Source: Cryobacterium sp. PH29-G1 (lineage in GTDB: Bacteria > Actinomycetota > Actinomycetes > Actinomycetales > Microbacteriaceae). From it: 64,000 nucleotides of DNA. The stretch lies in contig NZ_JASISY010000001.1 of assembly GCF_030063365.1 (NCBI RefSeq), positions 310,001-374,000 on the forward strand, given 5' to 3'. Every line of letters begins with the position of its first letter. The stretch's first letter is position 1. A program made the translations under genes and the position numbers. Under the pieces are notes generated by a model, which searched no databases, was not told the origin of the DNA, and worked only from the letters and a program-made list of their open reading frames with translations. Positions 8,275 through 57,642 of the stretch are shown here, in pieces.

Positions 8275-10248
<1,974 letters not shown>

Positions 10249-18144: not shown

Positions 18145-18217
18145 CGGGCCCGGGCCCACCTTATGCAACTGGGCCCACGATCTATCACGGGCCCAGTTTC
18201 CGGGCCCGGGCCCGGGC
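18145..18217 (+). repeat. GGGCCC-rich nested palindromic intergenic repeat, copy A
   Basis: An inner hairpin AACTGGGCCC/GGGCCCAGTT (10 bp, loop ACGATCTATCAC) is flanked on both sides by tracts of alternating GGG and CCC (GGGCCCGGGCCC) that are self-complementary and can pair to enclose the inner hairpin. The conserved skeleton is shared with copies at 49605 and 56039, all in the same orientation: CCGGGCCCACC, an 8-nt spacer, the inner hairpin with ATCTA in its loop, then TTTCCGGGCCCGGGCCCGG. Copy A fills the gap between tmk and holB. Confidence 0.9.
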
Positions 18218-49526: not shown

Positions 49527-49557
49527 AAGAGCCCCCGTCGGTGACGGGGGCTCTTTC
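49527..49557 (+). terminator. Rho-independent terminator
   Basis: A 13-bp perfect stem, AAGAGCCCCCGTC with GACGGGGGCTCTT, loop GGT, followed by TCT, sits 20 bp after the aldehyde dehydrogenase stop. Confidence 0.85.
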
Positions 49558-49604: not shown

Positions 49605-49670
49605 CCGGGCCCACCTTACGCAAGCGGGCCCATGATCTACCATGGGCCCGCTTTCCGGGCCCGGGCCCGG
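49605..49670 (+). repeat. GGGCCC-rich nested palindromic intergenic repeat, copy B
   Basis: Inner hairpin AAGCGGGCCCATG/CATGGGCCCGCTT is 13 bp, the longest of the three copies, with loop ATCTAC. Flanks CCGGGCCCACC and CCGGGCCCGGGCCCGG are as in copy A. It sits between two convergent genes just after a conventional terminator, so it is not itself needed as terminator for the plus strand. Confidence 0.9.
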
Positions 49671-49686
49671 TCGAAATGGGGCGCGG

Positions 49687-51033
49687 CTACTCGTGGGCGC
49701 TGACGCCGAGCGGAATCCCGCGGGTCTCCTTTACGAGGGTCACCGCGACGAAGGAGATCGCAGCCAGTGCCATGAGGTAGATGCCGATGGAGAACGACTG
49801 ACCGGTCTGATCGAGCAACAACTGCGCGATGAGCGGTGCGAAAGCTCCACCGAGAATAGCGCCGAGGGCATATCCGATCGACACCCCCGAGTAGCGAACC
49901 TGGGCCGGGAACATCTCGGCGTAGAGCGCGGCCTGCGGGCCGTAGGACAGGCCGAGCCCGCTCGCCAACACGATCAGGGATACCGCGAACCACACGATAT
50001 CGCCGGTGTCGATGAGGGCGAACATCGGGATCGCCCAGAGGAACAGAAAGGCATAGCCGATCTGGAAGGTACGGATGCGACCGATCTTGTCGGAGAGGAT
50101 GCCGCCGAACATGGTGGAGGCGAGCCAGAACACGGCTGCCACGGTGCTGGCGACGAGCACCGGGGTGCGGTCCATGCCGAGTCCGCCGGCCTCAACGGGC
50201 TTGGTGGCGTAGGAGCTGAAGAACGCGATGAGCATGTAGCCGGCCGCGTTGTTGGCGATGAAGATGAGTGCGGTGAGGATGACCTGACGCGAGTGGTTCT
50301 GGAAGAGCTGCTTGAGCGGAGCGGCAGATTCCTTCTTGCGAGTCTGCATCTCCTGAAAGACCGGGCTCTCGGACACCGCGCGGCGAATGACCCACCCGAC
50401 GACGATGAGGAGCACCGACACGAGGAACGGGATGCGCCAGCCCCAGGTGAGGAAGGCCTCTTCGCTCATCGAGGTGGTCACGGCGATCATGACGCCGGTG
50501 GCGAGGATGAGGCCAACCGGAACGCCGATCTGCGGGTAGGCGCCGAAGAAGCCACGCTTGTTGTCTGGTGCGTGTTCGACCGACATGAGCGCGGCACCGC
50601 CCCATTCTCCGCCGGCCGAGAAGCCCTGCAGGATGCGCAGCACGATCAGCAGCACGGGTGCCCCGACGCCGATCTGGTCGTAGGTCGGCAGCAGGCCGAT
50701 GAGTGCCGTTGCCGCACCCATCGTGACGAGGGTGAAGACGAGCATCGCCTTGCGGCCGATGCGGTCACCGAGGTGGCCGGCGACAATGGCGCCCAGCGGG
50801 CGGAACAGGAAGCTGATTCCGAGTGATGCCCAGGCGATCAGCTGGGCCAAGGGGGCATTCTCTCCGGCGAGCGGGGCGAAAAACAGGCCCGCCAGTACGA
50901 GCCCGGCGGCCTGAGCGTAGATGAAGAAGTCGTACCACTCGATGGTGGTACCCACCATGGTGCCGGCGAGAACTCGCCGTTCTTCGTTCCGTTTGGCGCT
51001 GGAAATCGGTGTGCGCTCGGTCGTTAAGGCCAT
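49687..51033 (-). CDS. MHS-family metabolite:H+ symporter
   Basis: 448 residues from ATG 51033 behind GAGGGAG. Twelve hydrophobic helices; GTTIEWYDFFIYAQAAGLV in TM1, GHLGDRIGRKAMLVFTL as the MFS motif A, and GGEWGGAALMSVEHAPDNKR, which identifies the metabolite:H+ symporter group (shikimate, citrate, proline and aromatic acid carriers). About 60 percent alike by eye to the second MHS transporter at 60007, which flanks the other side of the hpa cluster. Probably imports an aromatic acid. Confidence 0.9.
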   Translation of the reverse strand: MALTTERTPISSAKRNEERRVLAGTMVGTTIEWYDFFIYAQAAGLVLAGLFFAPLAGENAPLAQLIAWASLGISFLFRPLGAIVAGHLGDRIGRKAMLVFTLVTMGAATALIGLLPTYDQIGVGAPVLLIVLRILQGFSAGGEWGGAALMSVEHAPDNKRGFFGAYPQIGVPVGLILATGVMIAVTTSMSEEAFLTWGWRIPFLVSVLLIVVGWVIRRAVSESPVFQEMQTRKKESAAPLKQLFQNHSRQVILTALIFIANNAAGYMLIAFFSSYATKPVEAGGLGMDRTPVLVASTVAAVFWLASTMFGGILSDKIGRIRTFQIGYAFLFLWAIPMFALIDTGDIVWFAVSLIVLASGLGLSYGPQAALYAEMFPAQVRYSGVSIGYALGAILGGAFAPLIAQLLLDQTGQSFSIGIYLMALAAISFVAVTLVKETRGIPLGVSAHE

Positions 51034-56038: not shown

Positions 56039-56104
56039 CCGGGCCCACCCTATGAGAGTGGGCCCAGTATCTAACCTGGGCCGGCTTTCCGGGCCCGGGC
56101 CCGG
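56039..56104 (+). repeat. GGGCCC-rich nested palindromic intergenic repeat, copy C
   Basis: The most diverged copy: inner arms AGTGGGCCCAG and CTGGGCCGGCT keep ten of eleven pairs including one G-U, loop TATCTAAC, flanks as in copies A and B. It lies inside the hpa operon, in the gap between hpaE and hpaD, reading antisense to the operon. Confidence 0.85.
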
Positions 56105-56127
56105 AAAGCGAACGGGCGGCGGCGGGG

Positions 56128-57642
56128 CTAGTTGCCGCCGAAGCGGGGCGTGTGCACGGGGGCGAGCGTGATGTGCACGGCCTGCGAATCGGTGTAGAAG
56201 TCGATCGAACGGTAGCCGCCCTCGTGGCCGAGACCGGAGGCCTTGACGCCGCCGAACGGGGTGCGCAGGTCACGCACGTTGTGCGAGTTCAACCACACCA
56301 TTCCGGCATCGACTGCCTGCGAGAAATTGTGCGCGCGAGTGAGGTCGGTGGTCCAGATGTAGGCGGCCAAACCGTACTTCACACCGTTGGCCAGTTCGAG
56401 TGCCTCGGCATCCGTGTCGAACGGGGTGATGGCGACGACCGGACCGAAAATCTCTTCTTGAAAGATGCGGGCGGTCGGGGCGACGTCCGCGAAGACCGTG
56501 GGGGAGACGTAGTTGCCCTCGCTGAGGTTGGCCGGGCGGCCACCACCGGCGAGCAGGCGTCCCTCGGTCTTGCCGATTTCGACGTAGCTCATGACCTTCG
56601 CGTAGTGCTCGGGGTGTACGAGCGCGCCGACCTCGGTCTTCGGGTCGTGCGGGTCGCCGACCACGATGCTCTGGGCGCGGGCCGCGTAGCGGGCGCAGAA
56701 GTCATCGTAGACCGACCGCTCCACCAGGATGCGGCTCGATGCGGTGCACCGCTCACCGTTCAGCGAGAATACTCCGAACAGGGTCGAGTCGATCGCGGCG
56801 TCGAGGTCGGCATCGGCGAAGACCACGGCAGGCGATTTGCCGCCGAGCTCCATCGACATGCCCTTGAGATTGGCCGCGCAATTGCGGTAAATGGTCTGGC
56901 CGGTCGTGGTCTCGCCGGTGAACGAGATGAGCGGCACATCCGGATGCTTGACCAGCGCATCGCCGGCCTCCTCGCCGATACCGTTGACCAGATTGAACAC
57001 ACCGTCGGGCACGCCGGCGGTGCGAAAGATCTCCGCCCAGAGGCTCGCCGACAGGGGGGTGAATTCGGCCGGTTTGAGTACGACGGTGCAGCCGGAGGCC
57101 AGCGCGGGGGCGAGCTTCCAGCTTTCGAGCATGAACGGGGTGTTCCACGGAGTGATGAGACCGGCGACACCGACCGGCTTGCGGTTGACGTAGTTGATCT
57201 GTCGGCCGGGCACCTTATAGGTGTCGTCGATCTGGGCGACGATCAGGTCGGCGAAGAACCGAAAGTTCTCGGCGGCGCGCTGCGCCTGACCGAGTGCCTG
57301 CGTGATCGGCAGCCCGGTGTCGAATGTCTCCAGCTCAGCCAGTCGGGCGTCCTGCGCCTCGACGGCGTCAGCGATGCGATGCAACACCCGGGCCCGGGCG
57401 CGGGGCAGCATGCGCGGCCAGGGTCCGTTGTCGAACGCCTCCTTCGCTGCCGCGACGGCCAGATCGATGTCGGCCTGCTGGCCGGCGGCCGCTGTGGCGT
57501 AGGTCTGGTTGGAGACCGGGTCGAGCACGTCGAAGGTTTCCCCGCCGACGCTGTCGACGAATTCTCCACCGATGAAGTGACGGATGCTCGTGGGCAGGTC
57601 GGTGGGGATATAGTGCGTGGTCTGGACAGACGTCTGTGTCAT
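56128..57642 (-). CDS. hpaE: 5-carboxymethyl-2-hydroxymuconate semialdehyde dehydrogenase
   Basis: 504 residues. Aldehyde dehydrogenase with ITPWNTPFMLESWKLAPAL, VLKPAEFTPLS, FTGETTTGQ, Glu in MELGGKSPAV and Cys in NGERCTASSR. The NGERCTA form and the hpa context point to the semialdehyde formed by HpaD, which is oxidised to 5-carboxymethyl-2-hydroxymuconate. Lies 2 nt after the GntR gene. Confidence 0.92.
   Translation of the reverse strand: MTQTSVQTTHYIPTDLPTSIRHFIGGEFVDSVGGETFDVLDPVSNQTYATAAAGQQADIDLAVAAAKEAFDNGPWPRMLPRARARVLHRIADAVEAQDARLAELETFDTGLPITQALGQAQRAAENFRFFADLIVAQIDDTYKVPGRQINYVNRKPVGVAGLITPWNTPFMLESWKLAPALASGCTVVLKPAEFTPLSASLWAEIFRTAGVPDGVFNLVNGIGEEAGDALVKHPDVPLISFTGETTTGQTIYRNCAANLKGMSMELGGKSPAVVFADADLDAAIDSTLFGVFSLNGERCTASSRILVERSVYDDFCARYAARAQSIVVGDPHDPKTEVGALVHPEHYAKVMSYVEIGKTEGRLLAGGGRPANLSEGNYVSPTVFADVAPTARIFQEEIFGPVVAITPFDTDAEALELANGVKYGLAAYIWTTDLTRAHNFSQAVDAGMVWLNSHNVRDLRTPFGGVKASGLGHEGGYRSIDFYTDSQAVHITLAPVHTPRFGGN

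Follow-up and report, generated by a model that had tools for sequence, protein, structure and literature searches.

Nested palindromes in the window and their family

The window, a stretch of 64,000 nucleotides (nt) that forms part of contig 11 in the draft genome of Cryobacterium sp. PH29-G1 (3.80 Mb, 31 contigs), contains three copies (A, B, and C) of a nested palindromic element. They adjoin tmk, holB, two aldehyde dehydrogenase genes, a major facilitator superfamily (MFS) transporter gene, and a glyoxalase-type gene. Here we describe this element together with its candidate partner, a gene elsewhere in the genome that is bracketed by two of its copies. In each copy, the left arm, Y (GGGCCCACCTTATG), and the right arm, P, enclose an inner hairpin with an ATCTA loop, and the ends of the consensus are CCGGGCCC/GGGCCCGG. 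The features of the window are as follows.

18150..18215, + strand: element copy A, 66-nt core, between tmk and holB
18165..18200, + strand: inner hairpin of copy A, columns 16-31 with 36-51, loop region CGATCTATCA
18197..18215, + strand: P arm of copy A, TTTCCGGGCCCGGGCCCGG
49528..49555, + strand: terminator-like hairpin with a U tail, belonging to the left gene at site B and separate from the element
49605..49670, + strand: element copy B, between two convergent genes, for an aldehyde dehydrogenase and an MFS transporter
49620..49655, + strand: inner hairpin of copy B, 13-bp stem
49652..49670, + strand: P arm of copy B
56039..56104, + strand: element copy C, between two minus-strand genes
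56054..56089, + strand: inner hairpin of copy C, loop region AGTATCTAACCT, intermediate between the two main subfamilies
56086..56107, + strand: P arm of copy C, TTTCCGGGCCCGGGCCCGGAAA, a perfect 22-bp palindrome

Aligned without gaps, the copies share a common core of 66 nt with a mean column identity of 92%, and all three lie where a preliminary description of this DNA had placed them. The core of copy A begins at 18150, and an extra GGGCCC lengthens that element to 18145. Folding of the + strand is far better than that of shuffled sequences, with z-scores of -5.9 for copy A (73 nt), -6.0 for copy B, and -5.4 for copy C. With ≤3 mismatches, the arm TTTCCGGGCCCGGGCCCGG has six matches in the window (three places on both strands), whereas 0.12 were expected. 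The 13-bp inner stem noted earlier for copy B was recovered, and so was the change from CT/AG to GC/GC that had led to the proposal that both arms change together. However, the inner stem of copy A is interrupted nearer the loop (A-C and C-A), and the joint change of the arms is thus a tendency rather than a rule. When the window was scanned with Rfam, only two tRNAs scored above the cut-off, and the best weak match of copy B reached 20.2 bits against 36.

The three copies belong to a much larger set. The 17-mer TTTCCGGGCCCGGGCCC, with ≤1 mismatch, matches the PH29-G1 genome 69 times forward and 67 times in reverse, compared with 1 and 0 for a reversed-pattern control. A covariance model built from 25 copies (R1) gave 146 matches on both strands together, which were merged by hand into 79 places, with the arms arranged as Y-P, P-P, or Y-Y. 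The expectation of a genome-wide family comparable to repetitive extragenic palindromes (REPs) or bacterial interspersed mosaic elements is therefore borne out, in that this is a genome-wide family of extragenic palindromes. The window copies share one strand and are all intergenic, as first reported; genome-wide, the places occur on both strands, and 3 of the 79 lie inside called open reading frames (ORFs) at C13:22921, C14:14697, and C25:240459, which may be true insertions into coding sequence or reflect wrongly called gene ends. The preliminary description knew of no name for the family, and none was found in the part of the open-access literature that was accessible.

When named genomes were scanned for an exact pattern, all 46 stretches retrieved came from Cryobacterium, and R1 found the element in 22 of 60 genomes including PH29-G1, all within the genus. 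Across the family Microbacteriaceae, R1 matched 7 of 249 genomes in 2 of 85 genera. Relatives carry subfamilies with the same geometry and other letters, for example, GGCGCA/TGCGCC arms. A second model from 38 diverse copies (R2) matched 50 of 57 Cryobacterium genomes and, across the bacterial family, 16 of 248 genomes in 8 of 85 genera, some by one weak match only. The covariance scanning that had been suggested as a check thus yielded further copies in PH29-G1 and, in relatives, the same nested stem-loop with other letters. Phage and plasmid sequences held no match to the element.

A bracketed gene for a winged-helix and Vsr-like protein

In G119, a genome of another genus, one gene is bracketed by two identical elements, and its homologue in PH29-G1 is bracketed as well.

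C6:41939-42922: partner gene, between elements at C6:41741 and C6:42966, which are inverted with their P arms outward

The two proteins are 44% identical over 317 residues, and the N terminus of each is an AbiEi_4 domain. In the structure model, the fold of the N-terminal half resembles that of the AbiEi antitoxin, and the C-terminal domain has a Vsr/I-Bth0305I-like fold of the EDxHD homing-endonuclease type. Residues E221, D252, E263, D265, and K269 are invariant across 72 sequences, as judged by sequence comparison only. The protein had no PDB match by sequence, no NCBIfam match, and no phage match; plasmids gave four distant matches with 27-35% identity. The sequence records examined for this protein family are named for the antitoxin domain only or as hypothetical.

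AbiE type IV toxin-antitoxin systems consist of an AbiEi antitoxin beside an AbiEii nucleotidyltransferase toxin. While the partner protein shares the AbiEi_4 N-terminal domain with them, it has an extra nuclease-like domain, and the C6 locus of PH29-G1 lacks AbiEii. Its neighbors are rlmB, which encodes a SpoU methylase, and a DUF4032 gene, so this locus was not assigned to AbiE. The modeled C-terminal domain has the catalytic fold of EDxHD/Vsr-type homing endonucleases and in this resembles free-standing enzymes such as I-Bth0305I. However, in the partner protein this domain is joined to an AbiEi-type winged helix, and its palindromes occur in tens of copies rather than at one cognate gene site.

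Among the AbiEi_4 matches of six genomes, 8 of 23 have elements on both sides, four of these being one orthologous locus (PH29-G1 C6, PH31-L1 C22, Y82 C24, and C. glaciale C9). The best 30 homologue loci from 57 Cryobacterium genomes have elements on both sides in 23 cases, on one side in four, and on neither in three; at L322, the second bracketing element is a weak 35-nt match. These loci occupy few genomic contexts, two of which are common to 14 and 7 species. The 23 genomes with a bracketed gene hold a median of 82 R2 matches (29 to at least 91), whereas the other 34 hold a median of 5.5 (0-34; p 1.6e-10, ignoring descent and counting both strands). Full-length members of the group of this gene (group A) were taken as those with ≥52% identity, sorted by hand, and partial or broken ones in G003, G005, G018 C21, G024, G321, and G323 were excluded. 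In G321, G003, and G024, the group-A genes are seemingly split or frame-shifted, which suggests a partner decaying while some elements stay.

Thirteen genomes that lack the gene at the locus behind rlmB were examined, and none had an R2 match at this place. A solo P palindrome stands at this junction in G319 and two P remnants in G322. Since the P arms are palindromic, they are also direct repeats, and recombination between two of them could remove the unit, with a solo P remaining. By eye, an unrelated long hairpin is present in G029, G016, G017, G030, G316, G006, G019, and G025, and no long hairpin in G199, G034, and G306.

Twenty paralogues, 33-38% identical, were first meant as a negative control. 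None has an R2 element within 1.5 kb (0/20), and their genomes hold 31 to at least 91 R2 matches each. When the two 450-nt flanks of each gene were compared without an element model, a shared repeat (score ≥25) was found for 23 of 30 group-A genes, 16 of 20 paralogues, and 3 of 111 other PH29-G1 genes of 800-1300 nt. All three scoring control genes have an R2-type element within 450 nt, two of them on both sides. The reading of the paralogues changed accordingly, because they proved to have shared flank repeats of their own. Most of the 16 paralogue flank segments are nested palindromes of ~60-70 nt from families other than that of group A; L352 and L353 fold less clearly, and L339, L341, L344, and L348 are longer composites. 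In PH29-G1, a second, unrelated family (CGCGGGAGTTGCGCC type) brackets the C15 paralogue (L339, C15:14144-17499), and four more near-full-length copies of it (61-64 nt, 79-83% identical) lie at L189:1499, L170:3511, L153:37, and L148:13059. A second family at a second paralogue is support from PH29-G1 itself for a reading in which each letter family has its own nuclease. Repeats of the same subclade are more similar (median 24.0 in 142 pairs versus 7.5 in 678), a difference that is confounded by orthologous loci and was not used as proof.

Within the bacterial family, 80 of 247 genomes, from 41 of 85 genera, have homologues (E ≤1e-40). From a sample of 30 loci reaching beyond the genus, two were too short; the remaining 28 share a flank repeat (score ≥20) in 24 cases. 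Among the loci from other genera the figure is 19 of 23, and such repeats are present under 12 of 14 genus labels. Control outer windows of the same loci gave 0 of 84, with a top score of 16. Inspected by eye, 14 of the 19 non-Cryobacterium flank repeats are nested palindromes, under nine genus labels. The bracketed nuclease-like gene and the separate repeat families of its paralogues had both escaped the preliminary description, as had the absence of a Y1 transposase discussed below.

Placement, stem pairing, and concerted change

Gene positions were taken from a purpose-written codon-usage gene caller. An orientation could be assigned to 65 PH29-G1 copies; in 50 of 64, the 3' end of the right-hand gene points toward the P arm. 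One of 54 copies with both neighbors called lies in a divergent gap, compared with 60 of 249 gaps of ≥40 nt in the same stretches, element-holding gaps included (Fisher p 5e-5). Where a copy lies in a convergent gap (23 cases), the median distance between its P end and the stop codon it faces is 24 nt; compared with the Y end, the P end is closer to a stop codon in 17 gaps, farther away in five, and equally distant in one. Within the window, copy B has its P end 16 nt from the MFS stop codon, and for the P end of copy C the distance to the stop codon of the gene at 56128-57642, which encodes an aldehyde dehydrogenase, is 23 nt. Copy A is an exception in orientation, with its Y end facing the upstream tmk stop codon and holB beginning past its P end.

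This placement bears on the possibility that the palindromes are operators, bound by the winged helix to repress its own gene, with the dispersed copies as a regulon. AbiEi antitoxins are autorepressors that bind inverted repeats, and both the modeled N-terminal fold and the bracketing of the gene by the sites would suit such a role. However, operators would not be expected behind stop codons and so rarely in the divergent gaps that bear promoters; moreover, the elements flank the gene on both sides, and the conserved nuclease-like domain would be left unaccounted for. We regard this explanation as unlikely.

In a scan for U-tailed terminators, 6 of 65 gene ends on the element side scored, as did 15 of 135 other gene ends; five of the six are inside the element. 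Minus these internal cases, 1 of 65 is left (p 0.02), a figure biased because the element occupies the space. At site B, relatives (L222-L228) carry a hairpin (CCGTGCCGCCCGG..CCGGGCGGCACGG) 3' of the MFS gene, which is missing in PH29-G1 (49671-49700), where the element adjoins the stop codon instead. Such an exchange would be expected if the elements were purely host-kept 3'-end stem-loops and the bracketed gene a chance passenger, and the short distance from P end to stop codon and the unrelated long hairpins at 8 of the 13 rlmB junctions point the same way. Yet this would leave unexplained both the shared repeats of different letters that bracket homologues in other genera (19 of 23 loci) and the genome-wide concerted letter changes described below, and we consider it improbable to a similar degree.

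Site C provides a view of filled and empty states. The gap is short in many relatives and filled by an element in others, with a model match in 7 other Cryobacterium genomes and none in 13 or in two genomes of another genus. One clean pair contrasts GATGCTGGG-[element]-CGCGGCTA with GATGCTGGGCGCGGCTA. The tree of this site is weakly resolved; parsimony needs 4 changes and is compatible with one origin, with PH31 scored as present on a truncated copy at which R2 gives no match. Patchy presence and a clean filled/empty pair are what miniature inverted-repeat transposable elements (MITEs) would leave, and the copies could in principle be derived from an unrelated transposon, of the DDE or another type, for which the nuclease gene would be cargo. 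Like the Correia and RUP elements, which are short, inverted, non-coding, and present in many copies, the element has all four properties; it differs in that no same-ended transposon and no target duplication was seen in what was examined. No transposase was identified among the called genes near the examined clusters (first 45 residues; six Pfam-scanned), and no duplication was seen at the empty site. We regard a MITE-like origin as quite improbable. Junctions without the element hold other palindromes, for example, of the GGTCTCGACGGGCTCGACC type, at site C in L214 (G322) and L216 (G016) and also in L204 (G313).

Compensatory stem changes, as first proposed from the three copies, are seen across subfamilies and in place between orthologs. 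In the 38 diverse copies, pairing holds in 89.3% of pair cells (74.0 when shuffled), double changes occur in 17 of 25 pairs, and the covariation score is 0.375 versus 0.125 for shuffles and ≤0.077 for slid controls. The first 25 PH29-G1 copies gave a weaker signal: three pairs have double changes, equaled by 400 of 500 shuffles, and the number of double-change cells was reached in 16 of 500 shuffles and the covariation score in 4 of 500. Structure counts on these alignments (A2 and A3) lean toward structure because many members came from covariance-model searches; the slid controls and the comparison of orthologs in place are the better evidence for pairing.

The orthologous comparison covered 35 PH29-G1 sites and 83 tallied entries, 56 with a model match and 27 without, from unevenly sampled loci, many chosen for holding an element. 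Four keys in this tally represent two other-genus genomes (three for one genome), all scored absent at site C, and where three PH29-G1 copies share one gap, the same ortholog was counted against each. Over nine stem columns of 47 single-element pairs, 60 double changes keep pairing and 26 do not, alongside 21 single changes that keep it and 62 that break or mend it. When the partner is slid by 1 or 2 columns, paired double changes drop to 3-18, which, given the unpaired changes, indicates that pairing is favored but not strictly kept. The paired changes fit the selection on structure invoked earlier, but concerted replacement or strand-switch repair could also produce them. Repair by strand switching at imperfect palindromes, instead of stem selection, would be consistent with the loop being inverted in 3 of the 47 pairs and with the numerous unpaired stem cells in PH29-G1 copies. 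As it would leave the spread, the copy number, and the bracketed gene unexplained, we think it very improbable as the full account, although it may act beside the two-part explanation given below. In a test of wobble asymmetry, A-C and G-T numbered 52 and 23 in PH29-G1 and 53 and 67 in relatives.

Judged from the aligned copies, the elements evolve in concert within a genome. Column 17 is C in 47 of 55 PH29-G1 Y-P copies and in 7 of 94 copies of relatives, and at orthologous sites another letter stands opposite the PH29-G1 C in 27 of 30. In 43 of the 55 copies, this C is opposite T; the change breaks a base pair, and its spread therefore had a cause other than pairing. In addition, copies at one junction may be of different subfamilies in different species.

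Known repeat systems and the proposed mode of spread

REPs or REP doublets forming hairpins (REPINs), moved by a REP-associated tyrosine transposase (RAYT), are the closest parallel in arrangement, being dispersed extragenic palindromes behind genes with one gene bracketed by repeats. The element fits REP-like sequences in the broad sense, being an extragenic palindrome with many copies that generally follow ORFs and seldom occupy divergent gaps, and its copy number and 3' location agree with ordinary REPs as described in the accessible part of PMC3733652. The tagged REPs described there are palindromes of 20-40 bp, one end of which carries an unpaired tag, GTAG or CGTC, whereas the Cryobacterium element is a nested 66-nt palindrome whose consensus hairpin foot, by reading, has neither tag, and we did not class it with them. 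The Y1 transposase domain PF01797 was absent from all 37 genomes searched, PH29-G1 and 23 other Cryobacterium among them (5 of 14 controls were positive), and a RAYT partner was rejected; the partner gene found here is AbiEi/Vsr-type, with a fold other than Y1. Movement by a RAYT thus appears highly unlikely. Untagged or CGTC REPs without a known partner also exist, according to the same portion of PMC3733652; they too are palindromic repeats without a RAYT, but the Cryobacterium element has a candidate bracketed partner gene.

We therefore favor a two-part system, in which a REP-like family of nested palindromes and an AbiEi/Vsr-type partner gene belong together and the nuclease would drive spread and homogenization, and we give this reading a probability of roughly 0.6. 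The family and the partner gene are well supported by the sequence comparisons above, and the chemistry is conjectural. The nuclease-like protein would recognize its own palindrome family and cut DNA at or near it. Copy-repair of the break would spread the palindrome, with or without the gene, and would overwrite divergent copies, producing homogenization across the genome. Copies would persist just behind stop codons, where a strong stem-loop may be harmless or useful, probably acting as 3'-end stem-loops and replacing other hairpins that end or separate neighboring transcripts. The pairing of palindrome and gene seems to be a previously undescribed means by which repeated DNA is spread and maintained, and no paper linking AbiEi or Vsr-type proteins to palindromic repeats was found in the accessible part of the open-access literature. 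We see about even odds that this is a categorically new selfish or domesticated system, in which each letter family of 60-70-nt nested palindromes has its own AbiEi-winged-helix/Vsr-type nuclease that spreads and homogenizes it by cutting and copy-repair, working as REP/RAYT does but with an enzyme of the homing-endonuclease type, and in which copies become 3'-end hairpins of the host.

Several observations weigh against the two-part reading. Foldseek alone leaves the nuclease domain unplaced (Vsr E 0.31). Most bracketed Cryobacterium loci are two orthologous loci, so the independent events are far below 23, and in the 34 genomes compared with the 23, gene flanks were examined only where the gene was among the best 30 matches. 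Five Cryobacterium genomes (G025, G029, G319, G320, and G322) have 24-31 element matches and no full-length group-A match, so copies persist without the gene. Outside Cryobacterium, 5 of the 19 flank repeats are not clear nested palindromes, namely single hairpins at L400, L404, and L405 and unfolded repeats at L392 (23 nt) and L398. The wobble test gave no consistent transcribed strand; U-tailed terminators are rare whether or not an element is present, and most elements have no U tail. Finally, the single clean empty site has no target-site duplication longer than GGG.

If the two-part reading is true, it would add a second enzyme class for repeat dispersal and a gene-conversion route to the concerted evolution of small bacterial repeats, and it would give a likely role to a protein family that the records examined name only as antitoxin-domain or hypothetical. 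The candidate partner gene, which encodes a nuclease-like fold and can be tested, is flanked by nested palindromes in Cryobacterium and, as inspected by eye, under the nine other genus labels.

Clusters of two to four copies in related sequence were seen in PH29-G1 at C27:799-1326, C2:119128-119402, and C13:33-782 (L183, L145, and L164). Contig C27 opens with sequence that appears to be the 5' end of a 16S rRNA gene, which would place that array upstream of an rRNA operon. At C11:267.7-267.9 kb (L161, ~8700-8900) and C31:75.4 kb, the Y arm alone is repeated in short tandem arrays, with units of GGGCCCACCTTAGGCA or GGGCCCACTGCGTG, next to full copies.
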